DNA of 22,580 nt from a virus. Under the pieces are notes generated by a model. That model had not been told where the DNA came from, did no database searches, and saw only the letters and a program-made list of their open reading frames with translations. The position numbers and the translations under genes were made by a program. Every line of letters starts with the position of its first letter. Position 1 is the first letter of the stretch. The stretch is from IMG/VR virus record IMGVR_UViG_3300033153_008715, positions 1 to 22,580 of that record; one strand, written 5' to 3'. Below, piece by piece: positions 5,456-19,916 of this stretch.

Positions 5456-6010
5456 TTAGCATATTCCTGTTATTGGAGTTGAGCCAGATGCCATTCCCTC
5501 AGTTCCATATTCGCCGCAGTAACCGGAATCCTGGTTTGGGAAAATCATAAACTTTACAAGATGTACTCTCTGCGTTGATCGATCATACGGTAGGGTAAGC
5601 GTGCGATATGGATAACATTTGTAAAGTAATGTCCAGCTTGCCGGATCTGTATTAACGACATTATTACATATTGGGGCGATTACAATCTGTTTTGAATTTG
5701 CATACATATCACAACCAGCTACATTATTTAGAGTAATCACCTGGCCAGCCCTACTCCCTAGCACATCATAGGCGATAGAATTTTCTAATTGCGTGAGCGT
5801 TGATCTAGACATTGGGACAGAAAGCCCCATGACAGTCCCCATAAATACAGCGTCAACTGGGGCATCGCCATAATTTTCCTCTTCAACATTGCTGATATGA
5901 TCTTCAAGAGTTAGTTCTACTGTCCCAAACACAGGGCTTAAAGTGATAGGCGTTCCCCCATAATCCCAGACAATTTCTGCTGGGCCTTTATCTCCTATTG
6001 CGAGTTTCAT
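5456..6010 (-). CDS. Major tail tube protein
   Basis: 184 residues, starting at an ATG preceded by a strong AGGAGG 7 bases upstream, one of the best ribosome sites in the window and suited to an abundant protein. The N-terminus (MKLAIGDKGPAEIVWDYGGTP) and beta-rich body with few charged helices fit tube-like proteins of the lambda gpV / SPP1 gp17.1 fold. Position is the main evidence: after the tail terminator and directly before the chaperone. It forms the rings of the tail tube. Seven cysteines, several near the C-terminus, are more than I would expect and could be checked for virion cross-links. Sequence motifs alone would not identify it. Confidence 0.75.
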   Translation of the reverse strand: MKLAIGDKGPAEIVWDYGGTPITLSPVFGTVELTLEDHISNVEEENYGDAPVDAVFMGTVMGLSVPMSRSTLTQLENSIAYDVLGSRAGQVITLNNVAGCDMYANSKQIVIAPICNNVVNTDPASWTLLYKCYPYRTLTLPYDRSTQRVHLVKFMIFPNQDSGYCGEYGTEGMASGSTPITGIC

Positions 6011-7090: not shown

Positions 7091-7414
7091 TTAAGAAATC
7101 CAGATTTCATTATGATGTAATTTAACTGCATCCTGAGGTCTTGTTATCTTGATTATTGAATGGTCTATTGTTTTTGCTATGTTCTGTGGATCTTTTATTC
7201 GTATTTTCATTGAATGATTAATTGTCTGGCCAGGCTTAAAAAATAGCTTTGCAAATGATAGAACTTCCTCGCCCTGTGCATTCCGAATAAGTTTATTTGT
7301 ATACACAATCCGACAAACAACATCGCTTGTTATTACCTCTGTAGGCTGCCCCCACTGATCCAGGGTAATGTCTATTAAATCTACCTTGTTGATTAATAAG
7401 CTGTTATATGACAT
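7091..7414 (-). CDS. Head closure / head-tail joining protein
   Basis: 107 residues, start at 7414 with AGAGGTG upstream. It is predicted as a small beta-barrel: LLINKVDLIDITLDQWGQP at the N-terminus, then VVCRIVYTNKLIRNAQGEEVLSFAKLFF and a C-terminal beta strand. The N-terminal pattern followed by a C-R-I-x-Y-x-x-x-x-I/L motif is typical of head-tail joining (SPP1 gp16 / HK97 gp7-like) proteins. It should plug the portal-adaptor channel and offer the docking site for the tail. In most siphoviruses this gene directly follows the adaptor gene. Here the adaptor ends at 14530 and ten sugar-metabolism genes intervene. Confidence 0.68.
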   Translation of the reverse strand: MSYNSLLINKVDLIDITLDQWGQPTEVITSDVVCRIVYTNKLIRNAQGEEVLSFAKLFFKPGQTINHSMKIRIKDPQNIAKTIDHSIIKITRPQDAVKLHHNEIWIS

Positions 7415-7443: not shown

Positions 7444-8055
7444 TCATAGTATATATGGATAAGGTTCGCCCAATAAAATTAAGCCAGTGCCCTGTCCCAG
7501 TATATCCCTTGGATATTTACGTCCTTTTGCTCCTGGCCCGAACGGGCTACAATATCCTGTAAAAGTAATAAAAGTTTTATCTTGAACTTCTTTGTTTTCT
7601 GCAATTAATTCTTTCCAAAACCTTCCACAAGTACTTTTAAGATCCTCAAGCACAATATCATGAATGGCAATAATATTTTTTGTCAACGGCGCATAAAATT
7701 CATAATCTTTTTTAAGAATAGGATATAGATGACCTCCGTCAATATAGAGTAGATTAATATCACGCCCTTTTAGCCTATTTTTTAATTTCTTCAATGTCTT
7801 CGGATTATTGCTATCACCTACAATATCAGGTTTCCGGTCAGCTCGGATATCAATCCCAATATGTTCATAGCCAAGAAGCTGCTCATAAAACCGCTTTTGC
7901 CGGCCAAACCCAATGCCTATCTCAACGATTATGGGTTTTTTTATCTCTCTATTTCTGAAATATGTATCTATGAATTCTAAATAATATCGCCATTCTCCTA
8001 TACTTTGAGAAAGCTTTGTGAAATCCTGGATTTTATCTAATAATAAATTTTTCAT
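7444..8055 (-). CDS. SAM-dependent class I methyltransferase
   Basis: 203 residues. Motif I is IVEIGIGFGRQ (residues 43-53), followed by the acidic loop YEHIGIDIRAD (63-73), and then LLYIDGGHLYPILKKDYEFY (102-121) and IAIHDIV (129-135). The last two are characteristic of the CmcI / methyltransferase-24 group, which use SAM to methylate small molecules or sugars, often as O-methyltransferases. It is the last gene of the glycan cluster, and its start overlaps the radical SAM gene as ATGA. By context it probably methylates a sugar of the cluster's product (inference). The enzyme class is safe and the substrate unknown. Confidence 0.82.
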   Translation of the reverse strand: MKNLLLDKIQDFTKLSQSIGEWRYYLEFIDTYFRNREIKKPIIVEIGIGFGRQKRFYEQLLGYEHIGIDIRADRKPDIVGDSNNPKTLKKLKNRLKGRDINLLYIDGGHLYPILKKDYEFYAPLTKNIIAIHDIVLEDLKSTCGRFWKELIAENKEVQDKTFITFTGYCSPFGPGAKGRKYPRDILGQGTGLILLGEPYPYIL

Positions 8056-9266
8056 TTATTCATCCCTTTTAAAAATACGCCATCAGATTCCTCTATGGTT
8101 GGCTGCCGCTTATGTGTAACTTCAAATCTTTTCCAGGCTTCTGTACCGCTTAAAAGCCCCATCCTGGAATATTGTTGACTATTACATTTAAGCTCTGCCA
8201 TCACCCTTTTTGTCATTTGCATCTCTTCTGCTGTTTCTGTTGGAAATCCATACATAAATGTTCCATGAACATGAATTCCTATTTTCTTAATTACTTTAAT
8301 CATATTGACCGCTTTTTTCAAATCCAATTTTTTATGGATAATATCATCTAAAATTCTTTGGCTGCCGCTTTCAATTCCTATTTTTAGTTCCTTGCAACCG
8401 CATTGATACATAATAGCATATGTTTCTAAATTAAGAGTATCAGCACGGCACATTGCCCCCCAGGGCAACCCGAATTGTTTCAACATTTTAGATATTTCTC
8501 TGATTCTTTCATTGCCTATATTAAACGTATCGTCATCAAAATAAATATATCGAATCCGAGGTAATATTCTTAAAATATCCTTAATTTCTCTTTCGATCCT
8601 TTCAGGGCTATGAGGTCTATATAGATTATTTTTATGAAAACATTCGGCATAACAAAATGAACATTTATAAGGACATCCCCTACTGCCCCAAACATTTACA
8701 GCCAATGGATGCCTTGGAGTGGTATAAAGATAAGTAGTTTCATCTCTTGTTGGGAATGGGGCGTCGTCTATATTTTCCCATTCATCAAAATCATATACAC
8801 CGCCAGCCCCTCCAATTAAACAGGCATAAAGATTTTTTTCATATTCTCCCTTAAGAACCGCATAAACCTCTTTTAACTTTATCAATTCATCAGCAAATGC
8901 AGTGGCATGCATACCTACTAAAATTACTTTGCTATTCTTTGAGATTTCTTTTGTTATATAGTAATCATTTTTCCATGAAGCCGATGCTGTTTCCAATACT
9001 ACATAATCAAATTTTGCAGCAAAATTAAAAAAATCTTTATACTCGTCAAGATGTAGAATCGAATCTCTGAGTACTGATTTTATTCCTTTTTCCTTCAAAT
9101 AAGCATCTGCATAAGCCATATTAAACGGAAAGGGGAAGTATCCCTTATGTATCCCTGGGCTTGTATATGGCCAACGCCCTCCGGCTCTTAATCCCATCCT
9201 CGTTGCATTCTCTTTTAATGTTCCCGTAGGAACGAACCAGGGGGGATTAGAAATCAGAACTTTCAT
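8052..9266 (-). CDS. Cobalamin-type radical SAM enzyme
   Basis: 404 residues from the ATG at 9266, chosen because GGAG lies about 7 bases upstream; an in-frame ATG at 9302 has no comparable site. The N-terminal 165 residues resemble a B12-binding Rossmann domain (MKVLISNPPW, VVLETASASW, VILVGMHATAF, and KGEYE, which corresponds to the usual GE-x-E). The radical SAM core follows with CPYKCSFCYAEC (C198, C202, C205), the CxxxCxxC site for the [4Fe-4S] cluster. Family members catalyse radical methylations, rearrangements or ring formation. Here, among glycosyltransferases and next to a methyltransferase, tailoring of a sugar is likely but unproven. It overlaps the preceding glycosyltransferase by 20 bases. 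Confidence 0.87.
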   Translation of the reverse strand: MKVLISNPPWFVPTGTLKENATRMGLRAGGRWPYTSPGIHKGYFPFPFNMAYADAYLKEKGIKSVLRDSILHLDEYKDFFNFAAKFDYVVLETASASWKNDYYITKEISKNSKVILVGMHATAFADELIKLKEVYAVLKGEYEKNLYACLIGGAGGVYDFDEWENIDDAPFPTRDETTYLYTTPRHPLAVNVWGSRGCPYKCSFCYAECFHKNNLYRPHSPERIEREIKDILRILPRIRYIYFDDDTFNIGNERIREISKMLKQFGLPWGAMCRADTLNLETYAIMYQCGCKELKIGIESGSQRILDDIIHKKLDLKKAVNMIKVIKKIGIHVHGTFMYGFPTETAEEMQMTKRVMAELKCNSQQYSRMGLLSGTEAWKRFEVTHKRQPTIEESDGVFLKGMNK

Positions 9267-9999
9267 TAAATTCTCCGATAGTTTCATGCCATTTTTTGGC
9301 ATAATAAATCTTATTTACAGTCCATAGTCGTTTCATATCCGGTATTGGCGGGTGTTTCATATGGATAGCAATAATATTATCTTTAGTGATAACTTTCACT
9401 TTATTAACAATTAAAGTTCTTAAAAAATCGACATCTTCTCTTCCAAATCCACTAGCATAGCCCTCATCAAAACCGCCAACCCTATTATATGTTTCTTTCG
9501 ATAGCACAGAGCAGAAATGAAGCCGGCGGTTTCTATATTTTGAATGTTGATACCAGTTAATCATCTGATATCTAAAGTCTTCAAATTTATTGATATTCCC
9601 ATTATAGTCTGCATTTAATACGGCTGCAATAACATACAAATTAGGATTTTTGCTTAAAACTAAATCAAATCCTCCGAGTATATTTGTCAAATGTAAGCAC
9701 TCTGGATTAGTTAGAATAAGGAATTTCCCGCTTGCTTCTTTAGCCCCAACATTAAACATCCTACAGGGAGCATATGAGGGTTTAAACGTGGTTTCGAGAT
9801 GTTTAATTTTAAGAGATGGGGAGAAATTTTTGATCGTATTTACTAAAAACTCATGCTCATTTTCTTCCTCTATATTCTTGCGATCTTCCATTACTATAAT
9901 TTCATAATCTTCTCTTCCAGCATAGTGATAGAGAAACGATACAAATGTATTATGTATCATCGGCTTTCTATAATAAGGCATTAAAATTGAATATTTCAT
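9247..9999 (-). CDS. Family 2-like glycosyltransferase
   Basis: 250 residues. The N-terminus MKYSILMPYYRKPMIHNTFVSFL is the GT-A entry strand, and EIIVMEDRK gives the nucleotide-binding acidic residues. FNVGAKEASGKFLILTNPECL (around residues 82-102) replaces the canonical D-x-D with N-x-E. The segment GGFDEGYASGFGREDVDFL matches the galactosyltransferase/chondroitin-polymerase C-terminal signature (W/F-G-x-ED-x-D). It should transfer a sugar from a nucleotide-sugar donor, in the cytoplasm as no membrane segment is seen. It overlaps its neighbours (ATGA with the epimerase gene upstream; 20 bases with the radical SAM gene). Confidence 0.82.
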   Translation of the reverse strand: MKYSILMPYYRKPMIHNTFVSFLYHYAGREDYEIIVMEDRKNIEEENEHEFLVNTIKNFSPSLKIKHLETTFKPSYAPCRMFNVGAKEASGKFLILTNPECLHLTNILGGFDLVLSKNPNLYVIAAVLNADYNGNINKFEDFRYQMINWYQHSKYRNRRLHFCSVLSKETYNRVGGFDEGYASGFGREDVDFLRTLIVNKVKVITKDNIIAIHMKHPPIPDMKRLWTVNKIYYAKKWHETIGEFNESSDF

Positions 10000-10907
10000 T
10001 TATATACAGCCCTCATCCAGTCTATCGTCTTGGGTATTCCAATCTCTAAAGATATTATTGGATTATGATTAAATAAGCGTTTAGCTTTTTTAATATCTGG
10101 CTTTTTATTAACGACGTTATGCTTATCTTCGGGCAAATAATCAACTAATTTATCACTTTTCCCTATATAGGCTAAAACAATGCTACTTAATTCTTCTACA
10201 CTACGATATTCTATTCCCCCAATATTAAATACTTCTCCTGATATGAAATTTTCACAAGCTCTAGCAAGCGTAGGAATAAAATCATCAATATACATAAATA
10301 CTCTATGATATCCCTTATAAACCTGATAGGGTATGTCAAATAATGCTCTATAACAGAATAAACAAACAACGCTCCGGTAATTATGATAATATTCACCCGG
10401 ACCGTATGCGTTAAAAAATCTTAGTCGCATACATTGATTATTAAATCGTTTTTCAAAGTTCATGATTTGTATTTCATTCACCCATTTTGTTACCGCATAA
10501 TCATTATGCTGTATGATAGAGGATTGAAGTGGTAAATTTTCCGACAAAATACCATCATACTTATCGCCATAAATCTCAGATGAACTTGCAAATATAAGTT
10601 TAAAACCTTTCTTTTTTTGCCATTCTAAAATATTCCTTGTGCCTATCACGTTAGTCTGCCAAAGGGTATCGTAATATTCCTCGCCATTTATCCTGCCAAA
10701 CTCAGCGGCAAGGTGATAAACATAATCATAATTATTAGCAAATACTCGCTCCAGTTGTCTATAATTTGCTATATCCGCTCTGATATAGTTATCATCTTTA
10801 TGATGAGCCAGATCGCATTGATAAACGCTATGACCACGCTGTATAAGTTCTTTTACAAGTGGGACGCCGAGAGTCCCTTTGCTTCCTGTTACTAATATTT
10901 TTGACAT
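9996..10907 (-). CDS. NAD-dependent sugar epimerase/dehydratase (extended SDR)
   Basis: 303 residues. The N-terminal Rossmann motif is VTGSKGTLG (GxxGxxG, residues 6-14). DIANYRQLE and YHLAAEFGR follow, then the catalytic serine region FASSSEIYG (about 105-113) and YAVTK (YxxxK, about 138-142), and FFNAYGPGE plus a C-terminal substrate domain with EVFNIGG. This is the full catalytic set of nucleotide-sugar epimerases and 4,6-dehydratases (GalE / RmlB / GMD superfamily). The length is normal and nothing is missing. It would make the activated sugar used by the neighbouring transferases. The exact reaction cannot be told from sequence. Confidence 0.88.
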   Translation of the reverse strand: MSKILVTGSKGTLGVPLVKELIQRGHSVYQCDLAHHKDDNYIRADIANYRQLERVFANNYDYVYHLAAEFGRINGEEYYDTLWQTNVIGTRNILEWQKKKGFKLIFASSSEIYGDKYDGILSENLPLQSSIIQHNDYAVTKWVNEIQIMNFEKRFNNQCMRLRFFNAYGPGEYYHNYRSVVCLFCYRALFDIPYQVYKGYHRVFMYIDDFIPTLARACENFISGEVFNIGGIEYRSVEELSSIVLAYIGKSDKLVDYLPEDKHNVVNKKPDIKKAKRLFNHNPIISLEIGIPKTIDWMRAVYK

Positions 10908-11497
10908 TACCAGTACTCCTTTATGTCTATTATTGGATGTGAATTAATATATTCAAATTCTTTTTTTATTGAAATAGGAATATTATGAGGGTAACTTCCA
11001 GCCCTTGGAATTCTCCAGTCTTTCCCATAACGAATTTTAAGGTATTCTTCTGGAGGATTCGGAACTCGAGCTTTTATGTCCATAAAATTAATAAAATAAT
11101 CATCTTTAAAAAATCTCGCTGGCAGTACTGAAACATTCGACATTGGCTTATATGCTAATACTACAATCTTATCTTCTAGGGGATAATAATAACCTAAGCA
11201 AATGTCTATTTTAATTCCTCTTTTTCGAATGACAGATCCTGGACTTAAATTGCCGTAATGCTTTGTATCTCTTATTTTTTTACAGATAAATCCATTAGAA
11301 ATTAATTTTTTAAATACTATTGGAAAATTCCAATCAGAAGCCCATACCCTTAAATCAATATCTTGATCATTAGTAATTATGCTACCTTCTCTCACTGTTC
11401 CCAATGCCGTGCCATCAACTAGCCAGAATTTTATACTTAATTGATCTAAAATTCTTTTAATATCTAAAAATGTTTGCTTTGCATCTTTAATATTCAT
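10907..11497 (-). CDS. LicD-family nucleotidyltransferase-fold protein
   Basis: 196 residues. Residues about 22-53 read FWLVDGTALGTVREGSIITND then DQDIDLRVW, the LicD/fukutin signature with the paired aspartates of the nucleotidyltransferase fold. The C-terminal PPEEYLKIRYGKDWRIP is also typical of LicD. LicD proteins attach phosphocholine or other phospho-groups to bacterial glycans. It begins by overlapping the upstream glycosyltransferase (ATGA) and ends by sharing a base with the epimerase start (TAATG). In context it suggests that the cluster's glycan carries a phospho-substituent. The fold is well supported, the substrate unknown. Confidence 0.83.
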   Translation of the reverse strand: MNIKDAKQTFLDIKRILDQLSIKFWLVDGTALGTVREGSIITNDQDIDLRVWASDWNFPIVFKKLISNGFICKKIRDTKHYGNLSPGSVIRKRGIKIDICLGYYYPLEDKIVVLAYKPMSNVSVLPARFFKDDYFINFMDIKARVPNPPEEYLKIRYGKDWRIPRAGSYPHNIPISIKKEFEYINSHPIIDIKEYW

Positions 11498-12078
11498 ATA
11501 AATTTCCCTTGCCCATGATTTTTTTCTCCCTGTCCTCTTCCTGGCCCTTTTTGGGTACTGGCAACTAGTCGATCAATCCATAAATGTTCAATTGTATTTT
11601 TATAACAGGCCGCAATAAAGCAAAAATCTCCTCCGAATCGTCTATTACCGAAGATAAGAATATTTCTTTTCCATACGTCTAATCGTACAGCAAAACAGAA
11701 GGAAGCTATTGAACCGTAAACCGGAGCTTTGCTCCAGATTTCAGGCCGTGGATAAATACCTCTCCCGTCAACATACCCTTTAAAAAAAATAATTTCAGGA
11801 TTCTTATCTTTAATGAGATTTGAAAAATAATCTACAAAACAATCATCAATTAGCATATCATCATCATCAAGCACCATAACATATTTTGCATCAATCTGCT
11901 TTATTTTAGCAAATGATTTATTTGCCTGAAATATACCATACCCATCAATTGATCTATCATCATGATTTAAGATATGGACATAATCATCATTTATTTGTGC
12001 TTTAACTGATTGAATACATAGGTTAAGCATTCTACTTCTTTTAGGATGCACTCTAGTTATAAATGCAATTGATTTCAT
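11494..12078 (-). CDS. Family 2 glycosyltransferase
   Basis: 194 residues, short for the family. It starts MKSIAFITRVHPKRSRMLNLCIQSVKAQ, a classic GT2 entry. The acidic DDRS loop near residue 40 and KYVMVLDDDDMLID (about 65-78) provide the D-x-D metal/nucleotide site. FGGDFCFIAACY (about 148-159) stands where the catalytic ED motif is expected. No transmembrane helix is seen. The tail is basic and glycine-rich (KGPGRGQGEKNHGQGK). It overlaps both neighbours by ATGA. It likely adds one sugar to a growing glycan. Confidence 0.82.
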   Translation of the reverse strand: MKSIAFITRVHPKRSRMLNLCIQSVKAQINDDYVHILNHDDRSIDGYGIFQANKSFAKIKQIDAKYVMVLDDDDMLIDDCFVDYFSNLIKDKNPEIIFFKGYVDGRGIYPRPEIWSKAPVYGSIASFCFAVRLDVWKRNILIFGNRRFGGDFCFIAACYKNTIEHLWIDRLVASTQKGPGRGQGEKNHGQGKFI

Positions 12079-12734
12079 CTAACCTCCCATTGTCCAACTA
12101 TTTGTTTAAGACCAACTGATCTTCTATAATTTCTCGTTCCCTTAGAGTAATGTTTTATATAGCTTTTTAGATTAGGAAATTCTTTCAATATTTTTTTAGA
12201 TAATTTTTTCTTATGAATATCAATCATTGTTAAATAACAAGGCGCTCCATGATGTACATATCTATGGTGTTTTTTATAATTTGCGACATTTATTATTTGA
12301 AAAAATGGATGAAGATATAATAAACAACCTTCTGTTTTATGATAAGACCTTTTTCCGCAATCAATTCCATCATAACCTATTTTTATAATCTTACCAACCC
12401 CGAATGAATTATCATCCATTAAACCCAACATTTCACTTACAGGCGACTTGAGCATTTTAATATCTGTATCAAATAGCATGGCATATTTTGTCTTAACTCT
12501 ATTGATTCCAAAATCCAAACCTCGACCATGCCCGATATTATATCCCATCATTACTATTTCTGTATTTTTCGACATTATACTATATAGATATAAAGTGCAT
12601 GGGTTATTTAAATCAGAACCATTGATAATAAGAATAGGCATATCTGGATGAAATTTGCGAATAGAATTATAAGCAATTTCCATAAATCCCTTTGTATTAT
12701 AACAGACCGTAATGCCTGTTATGTCTTGAACCAT
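12075..12734 (-). CDS. GT-A fold glycosyltransferase
   Basis: 219 residues. The opening ITGITVCYNTKGFMEIAYNSIRKFHP is a GT-A entry, and KTKYAMLFDTDIKML (about 81-95) carries a DTD motif. NIGHGRGLDFGINRV is the substrate loop often seen in GT2 enzymes. YVHHGAPCYLTMIDIHKKKLS in the C-terminal half is a phrase I associate with phage glycosyltransferases, although I cannot give a named family. Its start lies 16 bases inside the upstream gene, so the two are probably coupled. Cytoplasmic; sugar and acceptor unknown. Confidence 0.8.
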   Translation of the reverse strand: MVQDITGITVCYNTKGFMEIAYNSIRKFHPDMPILIINGSDLNNPCTLYLYSIMSKNTEIVMMGYNIGHGRGLDFGINRVKTKYAMLFDTDIKMLKSPVSEMLGLMDDNSFGVGKIIKIGYDGIDCGKRSYHKTEGCLLYLHPFFQIINVANYKKHHRYVHHGAPCYLTMIDIHKKKLSKKILKEFPNLKSYIKHYSKGTRNYRRSVGLKQIVGQWEVR

Positions 12735-13480
12735 GATTGATAGTTATCCTCTGTTAAATTTCCATTGACTATTGCCATATAAATATTATAATCTTCCTCG
12801 TTTGGTATCCATTTTTTCAAGACCGCTCTTGATTCATCCCTAGTTCTATTTCGATAAATACGATGATTTGTATCGTGTCCGCCACCTATACCATGCCGGC
12901 CTGGCATGCCTTTCATACCAACGTGCAATGGTTTTTTATCATCAAAAAATAAATGTGCTCTTCTTCGATCAACTGCTCTCCAGATTCTCATATCAAGATA
13001 TAGATTTCCGGTTAAAAAGTTCCTGAATTCTGATAAAAAAGTTCTACTGAATGCCATCTCCGCAAGTGAAGATTGATGTGTATTTGCAAGGTGAGCAAAA
13101 TAACCAGATGGTAGATGATAATATTTACTTCGACCAATGCCTACGATTTCATGATGATTAAGTCGTGATGATATTTCCTCTACATAACCAGGAGCATAAT
13201 ATTCATCATCCTCAATAATTAAAATCTTATTTCCTCTTATATAAGGTATCGCAGCCCTAAGATTTTCAATTAAAGTACGCTCTGGATCATCCGGCTGCGG
13301 CTCCCGTCTTATATATTCCATTCCAACTTTAGGCTCAGTGGGAATTTTCCCATCATCAACTACAATCCATTGGTCTATTTTCAAAGTTTGCTTGCTCATC
13401 CAATATTGACATAGAGTAAAAGGTAACGGCCTGTCACCTGTTGGAGTGATAGCGGTTATAATCTCAATTTTATCTTTCAC
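12719..13480 (-). CDS. GT-A fold glycosyltransferase (phage type)
   Basis: 253 residues. The N-terminus IITAITPTGDRPLPFTLCQYWMSKQ, then QWIVVDDG (about 37-44), and NKILIIEDDEYYAPGYVEE (about 84-102) give the nucleotide-binding aspartates and the D-x-D-like EDDE. This arrangement, with the TPTGDRP opening, recurs in glycosyltransferases encoded by phages and prophages. A glycine/histidine-rich loop (GMPGRHGIGGGHDTNH) near residue 195-210 may shape the active site. It overlaps the cupin gene by ATGA and the next transferase by 16 bases. Substrate unknown. Confidence 0.82.
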   Translation of the reverse strand: MKDKIEIITAITPTGDRPLPFTLCQYWMSKQTLKIDQWIVVDDGKIPTEPKVGMEYIRREPQPDDPERTLIENLRAAIPYIRGNKILIIEDDEYYAPGYVEEISSRLNHHEIVGIGRSKYYHLPSGYFAHLANTHQSSLAEMAFSRTFLSEFRNFLTGNLYLDMRIWRAVDRRRAHLFFDDKKPLHVGMKGMPGRHGIGGGHDTNHRIYRNRTRDESRAVLKKWIPNEEDYNIYMAIVNGNLTEDNYQSWFKT

Positions 13481-13821
13481 TTCTCAATCCCTCCAACTGT
13501 TTCCCTTTCAATATCCTCGCCTCTGAATTTAATCTCGTATATTTCAAGGCATACAACCTGAGTTAATGCTTTAAATTGATGATAGATTCCTGGCTTAATT
13601 TCCGTCTGTTCTCCCTGCCATAATACTGTATCATCCCTTATTCCCTCTGCTGTCCAGACGCTCAATTTTAAATTTCCAGATATGATATAGAAGATATTTG
13701 ATTTACAGTGATGTAGATGTTTAGAGCAATATCCATCTTTTTTAATATCAAGAATATGCACGGCAACGTTTTTATTGCAAAATAATAATTCAGTAGTTCC
13801 CCATATCTTACCTTTTTTCAT
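13477..13821 (-). CDS. Small cupin, sugar isomerase-like
   Basis: 114 residues, one cupin domain. Motif 1 reads DGYCSKHLHHCKSNIFYIISG (residues 29-49): the metal-binding histidines H35 and H37 are present, but the usual glutamate is replaced by asparagine. Motif 2 is IKPGIYHQFKAL (about 75-86), with the third histidine. The spacing resembles type II mannose-6-phosphate isomerase cupins and nucleotide-sugar epimerases of the same fold. Beside glycosyltransferases it may interconvert a phospho-sugar or activate one. The missing glutamate means that metal binding and activity need care. It is coupled to both neighbours by ATGA. Confidence 0.75.
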   Translation of the reverse strand: MKKGKIWGTTELLFCNKNVAVHILDIKKDGYCSKHLHHCKSNIFYIISGNLKLSVWTAEGIRDDTVLWQGEQTEIKPGIYHQFKALTQVVCLEIYEIKFRGEDIERETVGGIEK

Positions 13822-14528
13822 TTTAATACTTCCTTATAATCTTTTTTAGGGAAACAATCAAGCCCTGAATCAGGATTTAAATTAATAACCTCAACATTTG
13901 TTTTTCTTTTAATCTCATTTGCTGCATGTTTAAAGTATTGTTTAAACCCCTCAAGCACGCTCTGTTTCATCCATATCCTCTTCCCGCCCTCATAATGACC
14001 GTTATGCCAATGAGTCTCAGATTTGTTGATTTTCATATCAAAGCCCAGGAGATAGATTCGCCTAACTCCCAGACAGACGGCCAGATTTATAGCCCCATAA
14101 CCGGAGTTGTTACCATGCCCTATACCGTCTTTCATAGTTAAAGGAAAGGCTTTAAAGCCCCTTGAGTAGTTAATATATACGGGTATTATAAATATATTTG
14201 CCGGAAGTCTACAAATATAAGTACAAAGCCAGGCTCTATAGGCTTTAGATTTAAGAAATTTATCCTTTGCTTCCTGGCCATAATTTCCTTCTAAAATCCA
14301 TCGGATTGTACGGGTGTCCATCGAGAAAATAATAGACGGATCGAATTTTTCATATACCCTATTTATCCCTATTGTTTTTTTACCCTTGAGTAAAGACCAG
14401 TTAAATCGTTTAAGGCTCGGGCCACCACCTATGATGTAACAGTCCTCATCCTTCCAGCTATTATCAGGGAGTACTTCGATTAAAAAATGATTGCTGAATT
14501 TTTTTGATCGTGAAACATATTCCGCCAT
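13818..14528 (-). CDS. DUF115-like / sialyltransferase-like Rossmann protein
   Basis: 236 residues. Near the N-terminus DCYIIGGGPSLKRFNW (about 29-44) contains the GGGPSL loop shared by DUF115 (motility-accessory, MptE-like) proteins and GT42-type sialyltransferases. KTIGINRVYEKFDPSIIFSMDTR follows, then NNSGYGAINLAVCLGVRRIYLLGFDM (about 140-165) and a histidine cluster THWHNGH. The family binds a nucleotide-sugar or a pyrophosphate compound and is common in glycan loci of phages. It is the first gene of the sugar cluster and starts one base after the adaptor stop, so its expression should follow that of structural genes. Catalytic role uncertain. Confidence 0.7.
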   Translation of the reverse strand: MAEYVSRSKKFSNHFLIEVLPDNSWKDEDCYIIGGGPSLKRFNWSLLKGKKTIGINRVYEKFDPSIIFSMDTRTIRWILEGNYGQEAKDKFLKSKAYRAWLCTYICRLPANIFIIPVYINYSRGFKAFPLTMKDGIGHGNNSGYGAINLAVCLGVRRIYLLGFDMKINKSETHWHNGHYEGGKRIWMKQSVLEGFKQYFKHAANEIKRKTNVEVINLNPDSGLDCFPKKDYKEVLK

Positions 14529-14529
14529 A

Positions 14530-15186
14530 TCAGGGAGCCATTATAATCGGCTTTCTTTTCACATAGAGTCGCAGGAATTGATCAGCCTCAAGAATGCCCG
14601 TTAAAATCTCGCTCTGTGAGCCTGCCAGATTGGTATAGGAATAATCTCCTATTTTCTCAGACTTTTTATAAGATATGTTTGTATATAATGTCGGATCATT
14701 CTCCCATTTTGCCAGTATAATAGCTGCCTGCTTGATAGCCTCTGGTACATCTCCCTCACTGCCAAACGTGCCTTTAACCCATATGTTATCATAACCCCTG
14801 GGAAAGATTCCCCGCTCATAGCTGGCAGAAAGAATAAATATAAGCTCCGGATCAAAAGTATAGCCGGCACCGGAAACACAGGGGTCTAAAAAGATTGAAT
14901 GCTCATCCCAGGTATACCATGACGAAGGCATTTCAATACAGGATACAGCTACATATGTTACCGTGATTATATCTGATTTAAGCGGGATAAACAGGCGATT
15001 TTTACCGTTTCCATTAAGCTTGATATCAAACGCTTCGCCCCCGAAATGGGTATGACAGGTTTTATCGATTAGCTGTTCAACTTTATCGATTATTGCTTTC
15101 CAATCGTCATAATCCGATCCACTGGGAAAATTATCGATATCTGAGGAGCAAATATAATCCCCACAATAAGTACCTGATGCAGGCAT
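14530..15186 (-). CDS. Head-tail adaptor (gp6/gp15-like connector)
   Basis: 218 residues; AAGGAG lies 6 bases before the ATG at 15186. The opening GTYCGDYICSSDIDNFP, then WKAIIDKVEQLIDKTCHTHFG, and the C-terminal PEAIKQAAIILAKWENDPTLY resemble phage connector proteins (HK97 gp6, SPP1 gp15): an N-terminal helical region followed by a small beta insertion and a helical C-terminus with the P-E-A-I-K-Q-A motif. It would bind beneath the portal ring. It sits after the capsid genes, as expected. In the usual order the head-closure gene comes next, but here a sugar cluster intervenes. Confidence 0.75.
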   Translation of the reverse strand: MPASGTYCGDYICSSDIDNFPSGSDYDDWKAIIDKVEQLIDKTCHTHFGGEAFDIKLNGNGKNRLFIPLKSDIITVTYVAVSCIEMPSSWYTWDEHSIFLDPCVSGAGYTFDPELIFILSASYERGIFPRGYDNIWVKGTFGSEGDVPEAIKQAAIILAKWENDPTLYTNISYKKSEKIGDYSYTNLAGSQSEILTGILEADQFLRLYVKRKPIIMAP

Positions 15187-15198
15187 GGTTGACTCCTT

Positions 15199-15245
15199 AA
15201 ATAAAAGTAAATTGGGGCTGCAAGCCGTAAAACCTACAGCCCCAG
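15199..15245 (-). terminator. Hairpin between lectin-like and adaptor genes, possible weak terminator
   Basis: Minus-strand TGGGGCTG (15244-15237) pairs with CAGCCCCA (15220-15213) around a 16-base loop. The stem is followed by an interrupted T-rich stretch (ATTTACTTTTATTT) rather than a clean U-tract. This gap (15187-15297) holds no gene. It may be a partial terminator that lowers expression after the capsid genes, or an RNA-processing hairpin. Confidence 0.45.
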
Positions 15246-15297: not shown

Positions 15298-16080
15298 TTA
15301 CTCAATAACCCGCATTTGTACGCATTTAATATAATCAACGCTAAGTGTTTTAGCTGCTGCTTCTCCTGCTTGGATACCGAATCCAAGGGTCAGCTCCTCA
15401 TCTTGAACTATACTTGTCGTAACCGTTCCGGTTGCAAGAACTGTCTGCGGGAAGTCACCGTCCTGGATAACGAACCAGCGAATTGTCCCGTCCCCGTCCC
15501 AATGGAAAGCTATTCTATACCAGGTATCATCTACAAGATCAATTCCGGTATCAGTATCATTTCCGGCTGCATTTGTAGCGTTTACAAAATCAAGGTTATT
15601 ATCCCCATCATCTTTATTGAATACAACATAATCATTAGGCGGCCCTGCGAACCATCCGGCTGTTCCGGTTATAAGCCCGAACCAGAAATCAGTTTGTTCT
15701 GCATCTGAGAGCTTAAATCTCAACTCCGTATATAACGGATAGCAATCTACAAGTTTCCAGCATTCACACTGCTGCACAAGTTCGCCATTGTCATCATCAT
15801 CGCCCTCAGTTACAAGTTCCAGCACACCATTAACCTCATCGGCGCACGCTATTGCGTCAACTCCAGATGTTCCAGGTGATTCAAGCAGATCCCACTCATA
15901 GGTTACATCGGGAAGATTGCAGAAATCATCTACAAAACGATGAGCGTCAATGATATCGATAACATCTTTCAGATACAACATTTTATCATGCTGAATATGA
16001 AGATTGTGCATTCTGAAGTCACGCCATAACAATTCAGGCTGATGAGCATCATCATTATCTAATACTTTCGGATATTCCAT
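15298..16080 (-). CDS. Lectin/LamG-fold-like structural protein, possible capsid decoration
   Basis: 260 residues from the ATG at 16080, chosen because GGAGG lies 6 bases upstream; an in-frame ATG at 16101 lacks such a site. Residues about 60-255 look like a concanavalin/LamG-type beta-sandwich: LYTELRFKLSDAEQTDFWFGLI, DTWYRIAFHWDGDGTIRWFV, and KTLSVDYIKCVQMRV at the end. These strand phrases recur in such domains. The protein is strongly acidic. It lies just after the capsid gene, so a virion surface or decoration role is plausible. Notably it is close to the glycan cluster. No precise family named; the fold is inferred. Confidence 0.6.
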   Translation of the reverse strand: MEYPKVLDNDDAHQPELLWRDFRMHNLHIQHDKMLYLKDVIDIIDAHRFVDDFCNLPDVTYEWDLLESPGTSGVDAIACADEVNGVLELVTEGDDDDNGELVQQCECWKLVDCYPLYTELRFKLSDAEQTDFWFGLITGTAGWFAGPPNDYVVFNKDDGDNNLDFVNATNAAGNDTDTGIDLVDDTWYRIAFHWDGDGTIRWFVIQDGDFPQTVLATGTVTTSIVQDEELTLGFGIQAGEAAAKTLSVDYIKCVQMRVIE

Positions 16081-16444
16081 CTTTTTCCTCCAATTTTTCA
16101 ATCAATAATTTTTTTGTCATTTTGAAAGTCCCTTTAATTCCTTTTGCCCCGGCCATAGATCGTAGTTGTTGTATTTTGAACTGTGAATAATCCATCTTGA
16201 ATTCATCAAAATCCATGTATTGTGCTTCTGTTTTAATTTCTTTTTCTACCTTTTTCCCAGGATATAATGGGTCTTTAATTATCTCGATTTTCAGTTGGAT
16301 ATCTCTGCGTTCATTATATTTCTGTAATTCTTTAATTACTTTTGGATTTCTAACCTCTATGGGCGCCAGCATGTTTAACCAGAGATTACCTTGACTGCAA
16401 GGAAAAACCCTAGGTCTTCCAAAATTAGTAACGATTGCTAACAT
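16055..16444 (-). CDS. Small head-region protein with Rho-N/SAP-like C-terminus
   Basis: 129 residues; the ATG at 16444 overlaps the capsid stop by 7 bases. The N-terminal half is beta-rich (NLWLNMLAPIEVRNPKVIKELQKY) with basic and acidic stretches. The last 40 residues, FKIQQLRSMAGAKGIKGTFKMTKKLLIEKLEE, fit the helix-extension-helix pattern of Rho-N, SAP or HeH/LEM domains, which bind nucleic acid or proteins and recur in small genes next to phage capsid genes. It ends 26 bases inside the next gene. Virion role not known. Confidence is good that it is a gene, moderate for the domain. Confidence 0.62.
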   Translation of the reverse strand: MLAIVTNFGRPRVFPCSQGNLWLNMLAPIEVRNPKVIKELQKYNERRDIQLKIEIIKDPLYPGKKVEKEIKTEAQYMDFDEFKMDYSQFKIQQLRSMAGAKGIKGTFKMTKKLLIEKLEEKDGISESIR

Positions 16445-17559
16445 TTATGCTCCAGGCATTTCAGGAATACAACGGCATTAACGTTTTCAATTTGAACTGC
16501 AATTTTCATGGTATAGAAATAATATGTGCATTCATCAGCAGCACTTCTCTGAGGTTCAATTTTAATATCCTTCTGGATTCCGATAATCAAGTTATTTTTC
16601 GGAGTCAATATAGCATCCGTATATTCACCAGCCCCAACTATACCATAATCAGGAGCGGTTCCTAGGGCGGTAGGCATAAGCGGGACGTCGATAATAGGAA
16701 CTTTATGATACTTAGTTATATCACCATCTGTGATTGCCCTATCTCCAAGAGCTGTTCCCCTGGCTTCTAAAGCCATTAAATAATCCTGAGTTACTAGATC
16801 AGAGTTTAAGAATACCATATTCTTCAGCCCTGTGTTTGCCTTGTACTTTGAGGGCATATTCTTTAGCATCTGTCCATATTTAATCTCCAGATTATATGGT
16901 GCGCTTGTGTGCTGTTCAGCAATCATCCCTGCTAATTCAAAATGAGCACTTGGATCCTCATCTCCACTTGCGCAATCATCCCCACTCTCGCATAAACAGG
17001 CGCTCTTGATATGAGCAGCCCCGCAGACTGAATTATAATAAGTATCCCCGACTTGGCTGTTATTTATAATATAACGCCAGCCGTCCAGTTTGCTCTCAAT
17101 CCGATCATCACACCAGGTATTGTAACTATGTGTATCGCCCATATAGGCGGCATATTCCAACTCATTAGCAGTTTGCCTTGCAATTATTGACATTAGATGA
17201 TTCTTATAGGCAGCCCCTTCAAGCCCCTCCTCAAGATCATCATCATAAACAGGAGCGCAGCCTCTGAATTTAACGGCATTCAAAGTAATGAGGTTGTGTG
17301 ACCATTGTTTTTTATAATCACTCTCATCAAAATTCTCAGCAGGATACAGGAAATGACCATCGCCAAAACCTAAATGTCTTATCCGCTTCTGAGGTTTTTT
17401 CATTTTAACTATCCGGGCATAATTTTTCATTACAGATTCATCAACTATGCAATCGATAAACTTATCGGCTTCCTCTGGCGGCAGGTCAATAGTTGGCAAG
17501 GATATCAGGTTATACTTCTCGATTTTTTTCTTTTCGAGCAATTTCTTTGCATCTTTCAT
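16438..17559 (-). CDS. Major capsid protein
   Basis: 373 residues, start at 17559 with GGAGG 8 bases upstream. The N-terminus (DLPPEEADKFIDCIVDESVM, then ARIVKMKKPQKRIRHLGFGDG) and the following VYDDDLEEGLEGAAYKNHLMSIIARQTANELEYAAYMGD match a capsid group with the HK97 fold. The C-terminal half (GDRAITDGDITKYHKVPIIDVPLMP, then LTPKNNLIIGIQKDI) carries its usual A-domain phrases. It follows the scaffold gene directly. There is an unusual cysteine-rich insert near residues 178-196 (CGAAHIKSACLCESGDDCAS) and a terminal cysteine, which could form disulfides or bind metal. Known role: self-assembling shell protein. Confidence 0.88.
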   Translation of the reverse strand: MKDAKKLLEKKKIEKYNLISLPTIDLPPEEADKFIDCIVDESVMKNYARIVKMKKPQKRIRHLGFGDGHFLYPAENFDESDYKKQWSHNLITLNAVKFRGCAPVYDDDLEEGLEGAAYKNHLMSIIARQTANELEYAAYMGDTHSYNTWCDDRIESKLDGWRYIINNSQVGDTYYNSVCGAAHIKSACLCESGDDCASGDEDPSAHFELAGMIAEQHTSAPYNLEIKYGQMLKNMPSKYKANTGLKNMVFLNSDLVTQDYLMALEARGTALGDRAITDGDITKYHKVPIIDVPLMPTALGTAPDYGIVGAGEYTDAILTPKNNLIIGIQKDIKIEPQRSAADECTYYFYTMKIAVQIENVNAVVFLKCLEHKC

Positions 17560-19352: not shown

Positions 19353-19916
19353 TTATTTCTTATCCTCAACAATCTCAAATCTTCCATGATTCCCATTACA
19401 AGCTGGCCGCCAATCTCCAATACCAACACAATTCCCAGCCGCAGCAAATAGATTGATAATTATCTCGATTGACAAAACTCCATTAGAATCATATTGAATC
19501 GGGAATATCATTTCCCAATTCTTAAATTCTGCCCGGATTCTTTCAATAGCACTTTTCCTATTCACCGTCACAACATCTTTCCTGATAATTGGCTCATCTC
19601 CAAAAATAGGGATATAATCAATAGGAATAAAAAAAGCTCCTCTGACTTTTGTCTTTGGGATGTTCTCAACAAACGTATGAGCTGTATCAATAGCACATCG
19701 CTTTAATCCAGTGGCAGGGAAGGAATATTTACCATCCACTTTAGGATAAAGACAGCTCTCAAAAATCTTATCTTCATCCTTTTCCCTTGTTGTCTTTTTC
19801 TCAATCTTTTCCGGAGTTCTCCGGTTCGTGATTAACGACGTAAGACCTCTAATACGAATATTAGTCGTTACAATCTTTGGTCTCACCAGTTTAATTCTTG
19901 ATGCTTTTTCAGCCAT
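19353..19916 (-). CDS. Phage protein with Cas7/RAMP-like features, function unknown
   Basis: 187 residues; start at 19916 with AGGAGG 7 bases upstream. It opens with beta strands (IVTTNIRIRGLTSLITNRR), has a PATGLKRCAIDTAHT segment near residue 68, and then a strand-rich half with FKNWEMIFPIQYD and LSIEIIINLFAAAGNCVGIGDWRPACNG (about 146-173), ending HGRFEI. The glycine-rich end and strand order recall RRM-type RAMP (Cas7-like) folds. I have seen this C-terminal phrase in phage hypothetical proteins. No CRISPR genes are nearby, so a CRISPR role is not claimed. It is preceded by a promoter, a long inverted repeat and a pentamer array. Confidence 0.7.
   Translation of the reverse strand: MAEKASRIKLVRPKIVTTNIRIRGLTSLITNRRTPEKIEKKTTREKDEDKIFESCLYPKVDGKYSFPATGLKRCAIDTAHTFVENIPKTKVRGAFFIPIDYIPIFGDEPIIRKDVVTVNRKSAIERIRAEFKNWEMIFPIQYDSNGVLSIEIIINLFAAAGNCVGIGDWRPACNGNHGRFEIVEDKK

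Follow-up and report, generated by a model that had tools for sequence, protein, structure and literature searches.

In the DNA analyzed here, the genes for the head-tail adaptor and the head-closure protein of a tailed phage are separated by an island of ten genes whose products probably build a glycan on a virion protein while the particle is being assembled. The DNA, called the window, is a 22,580-base tailed-phage fragment (IMG/VR virus record IMGVR_UViG_3300033153_008715), and the island comprises ten minus-strand open reading frames (ORFs) at positions 7444-14528, all of them present as stated in a preliminary description of this DNA. Its first gene, the leader, encodes a DUF115/MptE-like protein that we propose to be a cytosolic Maf-like protein glycosyltransferase (GT) working with exchangeable partners. 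More tentatively, and with the balance somewhat against so wide a statement, many unrelated tailed phages, including D3 and P1, might carry an exchangeable virion-glycan cassette in which a single-domain Maf-like leader acts in the cytosol to prime a structural protein. The leader would be inherited with the structural genes and the rest shuffled, and related phages would then wear different sugars on particles that are otherwise similar.

Results

The adaptor and head-closure genes had been described as normal neighbours, and comparison with distant relatives agreed with this. The two flanks are separated by 12, 12 and 15 bases in contigs L049, L052 and L053, whose capsid proteins are 40-44% identical to that of the window, and a single small ORF lies between them in L057. 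The genes Ad1 and Hc1 are likewise adjacent in phages D3 and PAJU2. Since the flanks are 12-15 bases apart in the distant relatives, the island is a real insertion. The relatives that have the slot are all metagenomic contigs; a nucleotide search of 50,697 phage records returned no near relative of the window, and the adaptor had no protein match there. In the nearer lineage (54-99% capsid identity), the slot was filled in every visible case. Both borders could be seen in eight cases (the window, L003/L068, L009, L004, L015, L016, L017 and L019/L027) and the left side only in seven others (L005, L014, L018, L020, L021, L023 and L046). The search for the same insertion position in related phages, which the preliminary description had proposed, located all eight bounded islands at one junction, each with a leader, and none of these relatives had the cluster elsewhere under early control. 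The repeated occurrence of bounded islands at the same junction, together with ratios of nonsynonymous to synonymous substitution (dN/dS) of 0.02-0.22 in relatives, excludes chance. Base composition was rejected as a proof of insertion because the cargo is AT-rich in the window, L003 and L009 (GC content of 34-36% versus 40-48% in the flanks) but not in L004 or L015.

The bounded islands span 5.0-12.8 kb, and the leader is the only gene present in all eight. A cupin gene was found in four, and the remaining families each occurred in at most three islands, most of them in a single one. The other seven islands have nothing that corresponds to the window's LicD, epimerase, radical SAM and fourth GT genes. 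The leader is kept and the nine other window genes are exchangeable cargo, the exchange being visible across the islands. Elsewhere the cargo includes GT4, GT9, rhamnosyltransferase-like, sulfotransferase and methyltransferase proteins, as well as a WbuX N-acetyl sugar amidotransferase that scored over its cut-off. In four contigs, the leader is fused in frame to downstream domains in single ORFs of 881-1093 amino acids (L009:12980-15850, L004:5514-8204, L017:9965-12610 and L019:9950-13231), and L019/L027 has two leader domains within one ORF. The fused parts in L009 are the counterparts of three GTs of the window, GTa, GTb and GTc, which argues that the leader and these GTs act together. The island genes are under purifying selection in the relatives: among L014, L015 and L016 their dN/dS values were those given above, compared to 0.03-0.10 in the neighbouring structural genes. 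Between the window and L002 there were no amino acid changes in the cupin or in the compared part of GTa.

The leader (13818..14528, minus strand) is a protein of 236 amino acids with one domain and a GT42(CstII)-type predicted fold. It matched phrog_4603 'alpha-2;3-sialyltransferase' (E 4.5e-32) and, under the cut-off of 34.6 bits, PF01973 (26.8 bits); the orthologous domain of L004 exceeded that cut-off with 40.0 bits. A model built from a 25-sequence alignment had a mean predicted local distance difference test score (pLDDT) of 93. When compared to the PDB with Foldseek, it matched CstII (1ro8, E 2e-4), MptE (8sd5, E 2e-3) and a Pasteurella sialyltransferase (E 6e-3), the first two with a probability of 1.0. 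The leader is 15% identical to CstII, and profile searches gave weak matches to CstII-type and MptE proteins in which the GGGPSL motif, N56, D71 and the NSG motif align with CstII. These comparisons assign the leader a CstII/MptE-like predicted fold. Flagellin is glycosylated in the cell before export. The PF01973 domain of the Maf flagellin O-glycosyltransferase has been described as CstII-like (PMC11339370). From all of these comparisons, the leader is likely a cytosolic transferase that depends on a nucleotide sugar.

The other nine genes, all on the minus strand, follow the leader closely. The tight junctions reported earlier are all there, with 4-base overlaps at 13818-13821, 13477-13480, 12075-12078, 11494-11497, 9996-9999 and 8052-8055 and a 1-base gap between the adaptor stop (14530) and the leader start (14528). 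There are further overlaps of 16 bases (12719-12734) and 1 base (10907), and 29 bases separate the island from the head-closure gene. The listed start of the radical SAM ORF is 9302; an ATG at 9266, which follows a GGAG, is a likelier start and yields the 20-base overlap named before. The families that had been assigned to the genes were sustained over the Pfam cut-offs for LicD, the epimerase, the radical SAM protein and two GTs, while the cupin, the methyltransferase, the B12-binding part, the other two GTs and DUF115/MptE fell under them; most of the latter were backed by PHROGs or by relatives.

In order of transcription, the cargo begins with a small cupin of 114 amino acids (13477..13821; phrog_7851, E 1.6e-13; WbuC-like, under the NCBIfam cut-off). 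Three GT-A-like glycosyltransferases come next: GTa, with a GTG start (12719..13480; Glycos_transf_2 under cut-off, E 0.0025), GTb (12075..12734; Glycos_transf_2, 30.8 bits, cut-off 23.3) and GTc (11494..12078; Glycos_transf_2 under cut-off, E 0.024), with 66%, 54% and 58% identity, respectively, to parts of the fused protein of L009. They are followed by a LicD-type phosphotransferase (10907..11497; PF04991, 38.0 bits, cut-off 22.6), found in the window island only, and an SDR nucleotide-sugar epimerase/dehydratase (9996..10907; PF01370, 123.5 bits, cut-off 20.9, E 1e-35), also confined to the window, whose nearest solved structure is 8w3u (E 6e-85). The last three genes encode GTd, of the galactosyltransferase C-domain type (9247..9999; PF02709, Glyco_transf_7C, 27.8 bits, cut-off 23; window only), a radical SAM protein with a weak B12-binding N-terminal part (8052..9266) and a Methyltransf_24-like methyltransferase (7444..8055; PF13578 under cut-off, E 0.003) that shares 46% identity across 142 residues with a protein of the L027 island. 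The radical SAM protein has the CxxxCxxC motif and matched PF04055 (70.2 bits, cut-off 29.5, E 3e-19), HpnJ-like proteins (E 5e-46, far under cut-off) and apramycin oxidoreductase 4 (6fd2, E 3e-17). None of the island proteins reached the transmembrane threshold (a 19-residue hydropathy mean above 1.6). No flippase, polymerase, Gtr membrane protein or lipid-linked initiating enzyme appeared among their Pfam, PHROGs and NCBIfam hits; PHROGs gave weak GtrB-like matches to GT domains only.

Homologs of the leader in unrelated phages, Caulobacter phages among them, were mostly located in head, neck or tail blocks. D3 has orf7 between the capsid gene and Ad1, and orf12 with a methyltransferase gene between Hc1 and an HK97-gp10-like gene. 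In PAJU2, the leader homolog (gp10), an unknown protein and a methyltransferase lie together between Hc1 and an HK97-gp10-like gene, ahead of the tail terminator. The homolog of S20 (TVGG_00049) stands behind capsid-region genes and is followed by a GT, a second leader-like gene, a methyltransferase and a GT, and that of the Caulobacter phage CcrColossus stands behind a tail gene, with genes for sugar transferases and a methyltransferase after it. In L042 it lies between the tail terminator and the major tail protein, again followed by a methyltransferase, in L029 and L041 behind the capsid gene, and in L034 near a major-head-like gene. The pmgO gene of P1, which belongs to a block of genes labelled putative morphogenetic, is also a homolog. 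The leader profile scored 88.5 bits on pmgO and 31.2 bits on pmgP (together at L063:3935-5121), and the two therefore look like tandem paralogs. Paired leader-like genes close to each other were also seen in L026, L028, L030, L032, S20 and XacN1.

Discussion

The proposed mechanism starts with the leader, which would take the first sugar from a nucleotide-sugar donor and attach it to a side chain in one of the structural proteins, as Maf does on flagellin. The GTs would then lengthen the glycan, whose particular sugars would be made or capped by the proteins of the epimerase, radical SAM, LicD and methyltransferase genes. The preliminary description had regarded the cluster as locked into the late operon. 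Its genes do encode glycan enzymes, overlap one another, run in the direction of the late structural genes and are linked to these in translation; co-expression is suggested by this layout, and if the cassette is transcribed together with the genes of the neck and tail, its product would be made while particles assemble. With a constant leader, the swapping of elongating and capping genes between phages would alter the glycan coat, and the benefit could lie in adsorption, in the stability of the particle or in its being masked from binding molecules. Since no membrane proteins are predicted and no export or polymerisation genes were matched, the acceptor would appear to be in the cytosol, the site of virion assembly. 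We infer the transferase activity, the protein acceptor, the virion localisation, the co-expression and the benefit.

Several observations weigh against glycosylation of the virion. The TM-score of the CstII and MptE matches is only about 0.47. The fold fixes neither the acceptor nor the donor, because CstII acts on lipooligosaccharide and MptE on pterin, and the single-domain leader lacks the three-domain architecture of Maf. LicD and WbuX types usually belong to surface-polysaccharide loci. Among the unrelated phages, the XacN1 homolog lies by a ribonucleotide reductase gene rather than by structural genes, and pmgO of P1, although near tail genes, is within a block of genes with unassigned functions. 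The acceptor candidates, moreover, are putative, and any choice among them is speculative.

Some of these points favor a rival explanation to which we give a minor share of the probability, namely that the island remodels the host surface late in infection, changing the lipopolysaccharide (LPS) or capsule so that progeny avoid re-adsorption to debris or infected cells. Surface glycans are the typical setting of LicD, WbuX-type and GT9 (heptosyltransferase-like) enzymes, the nearest fold to the leader is that of a lipooligosaccharide sialyltransferase, and GTs and LicD enzymes are able to modify lipid-linked glycans at the membrane from the cytosol. However, the island has no predicted membrane protein, and neither a flippase nor a polymerase nor a lipid-linked initiating enzyme was matched, which does not suit such a role; nor does a position locked into the neck genes throughout the lineage, and late expression would leave scant time for surface renewal. 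A change of the host surface is therefore less likely than glycosylation of the virion. It is improbable that the junction is merely a moron hotspot that tolerates insertions, with mixed sugar genes that have no common product. The cargo is highly variable and, in the three islands named above, AT-rich, as a hotspot would predict. Against this, L004 and L015 show no GC difference, purifying selection acts on the genes, and four contigs have the leader fused in frame to downstream domains. Nearly all of the cargo that can be recognised is of a glycan-, methyl- or sulfotransferase-like kind, and the same leader is present in every case. Decoration of a hypermodified base in the DNA of the phage is very improbable: phage GTs with that role exist (as cited in PMC12619734) and are cytosolic like those of the island, but thymidylate-synthase/hydroxymethylase (PF00303) was not found in ten partial records in which the controls worked, a Tet_JBP (PF12851) search was empty with its control silent too, and DNA glycosylation gives no reason for the slot among the neck genes.

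Glycosylation of the virion by a slot-locked cassette has partial precedents. In mycobacteriophages, which encode GTs of their own, capsid and tail-tube subunits were reported to carry glycans at their C-termini (Freeman et al. 2023, as reported in PMC12619734), whereas here the glycan is a predicted one, and the cassette is led by DUF115, reaches up to 17 ORFs and occurs in other phages. The Maf flagellin O-glycosyltransferases (PF01973/DUF115) share with the leader a CstII-like PF01973-type fold, the lack of a membrane segment and a place next to genes that encode an assembled structure; the window leader differs in being a single domain without the flanking Maf domains, and no flagellin is involved. 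CstII and the other GT42 sialyltransferases share the fold and the aligned motifs, but the leader is outside any LPS locus and its use of a CMP-sugar is putative. D3 orf7, PAJU2 gp10, P1 pmgO and S20 TVGG_00049 resemble the leader in their location and often in having a methyltransferase or GTs nearby, and differ in having mostly fewer partner genes and other exact positions. The gtrABC serotype-conversion clusters are also phage-borne glycosyltransferase genes; unlike them, the island has no membrane flippase (GtrA) or membrane-bound transferase and is embedded in neck genes instead of forming a separate moron. The absence of a flippase or polymerase among the hits also distinguishes it from a Wzx/Wzy polysaccharide locus. 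In the literature searched, there was no description of a slot-locked cassette or of DUF115 in phage structural operons. Phage virion glycosylation is already known, and this search suggests that the slot-locked, DUF115-led cassette is new within that literature. If the proposed role is correct, glycosylation of phage particles would be a recurring modular trait with a marker gene among the assembly genes, rather than a mycobacteriophage curiosity. It would give a meaning to P1 pmgO and D3 orf7, which are labelled just 'putative morphogenetic' or 'sialyltransferase', and it would explain how surface chemistry could vary among related phages, with a bearing on adsorption, recognition and stability. 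P1 and D3 are laboratory phages in which the idea is testable.

Candidate Acceptors and Neighbouring Genes

Two proteins of the window were considered as acceptors. One is a lectin-fold (LamG/SO2946-like) protein (15298..16101, minus strand) that matched PF22237 under cut-off (E 2.5e-5) and, by Foldseek, 2a5z (E 2e-10) followed by legume lectins; its model had a pLDDT of 69. It is restricted to the lineage with a filled slot and is a possible virion decoration protein or acceptor. As an obligatory acceptor it was rejected, since other DUF115 phages lack it. The second is a tail protein, possibly the tail tube (5456..6010, minus strand; phrog_2175), whose C-terminus, GTEGMxSGSTPITGIC (ending SGSTPITGIC), could speculatively be a flexible acceptor tail. 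Of the relatives, L003 and L009, among the nearest, retain this C-terminus, whereas L015/L016 lack it; as it was the sole suggestive case and has no counterpart in those two contigs, Ser/Thr-rich acceptor tails were discarded as a general explanation.

A terminator-like hairpin with a 14 bp stem and a 4-nucleotide loop (15213..15244, minus strand; z -3.75) lies between the lectin-fold and adaptor genes. Nine other relatives tested have hairpins at the same gap, mostly of different sequence, with z values of about -2 to -6.6; in L005 the corresponding gap is merely 19 bases. The hairpin is possibly a leaky terminator that sets capsid versus neck and tail expression.

In order of transcription, the minus strand of the window encodes a minor head-like protein, capsid-associated proteins, the major capsid protein, a small protein, the lectin-fold protein, the head-tail adaptor, the island, the head-closure protein, a neck-like protein, and tail proteins with the tape measure. 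The major capsid protein (16438-17559, minus strand) is distantly similar to proteins annotated as major capsid in phages of Streptomyces. The adaptor, at the left border of the slot (14530..15186, minus strand), has 218 amino acids, matched phrog_442 (E 3e-16) and is 42-99% identical in island-bearing relatives. The head-closure or connector protein, at the right border (7091..7414, minus strand), was identified by its position and by weak profile matches (phrog_3881 'head-tail connector', E 2e-4; phrog_615 'head-tail adaptor', E 2e-3); it is 31-75% identical across relatives, and the neck-like, tape-measure and tail genes downstream are consistent with the assignment. A search of 292 Desulfobacterales genomes gave a single match to the capsid gene, 64% identical, on a metagenome-assembled genome (MAG) contig (L060, JABXJW010000046.1) that ends inside the lectin-fold gene; the leader and adaptor were not found in that MAG. 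The contig may be a hint of the host or a co-binned phage contig, and Desulfobacterales is only a lead.

The adaptors of five relatives carry about 150 inserted residues, with 371-377 amino acids compared to 218 in the window (L005:9989-11122, L017:8590-9708, L019:8835-9950, L020:8584-9702 and L023:3508-4623). By eye, the insert has the look of a carbohydrate-binding jelly roll, and the adaptors of L049 and L052, where the slot is empty, are larger still. Relatives with an empty slot have a different protein behind the neck genes, with a GxGxSLLRC start (L048:5633-6292 and L054:10659-11324), which is perhaps a diverged leader in another slot; the L048 protein had a marginal leader-profile score (E 0.0047), and a second look-alike is found at L048:7324-8055. 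Upstream of the capsid gene, a protein of 187 amino acids (19353-19916, minus strand) had no Pfam match and has a distant homolog in L049 (28% identity).

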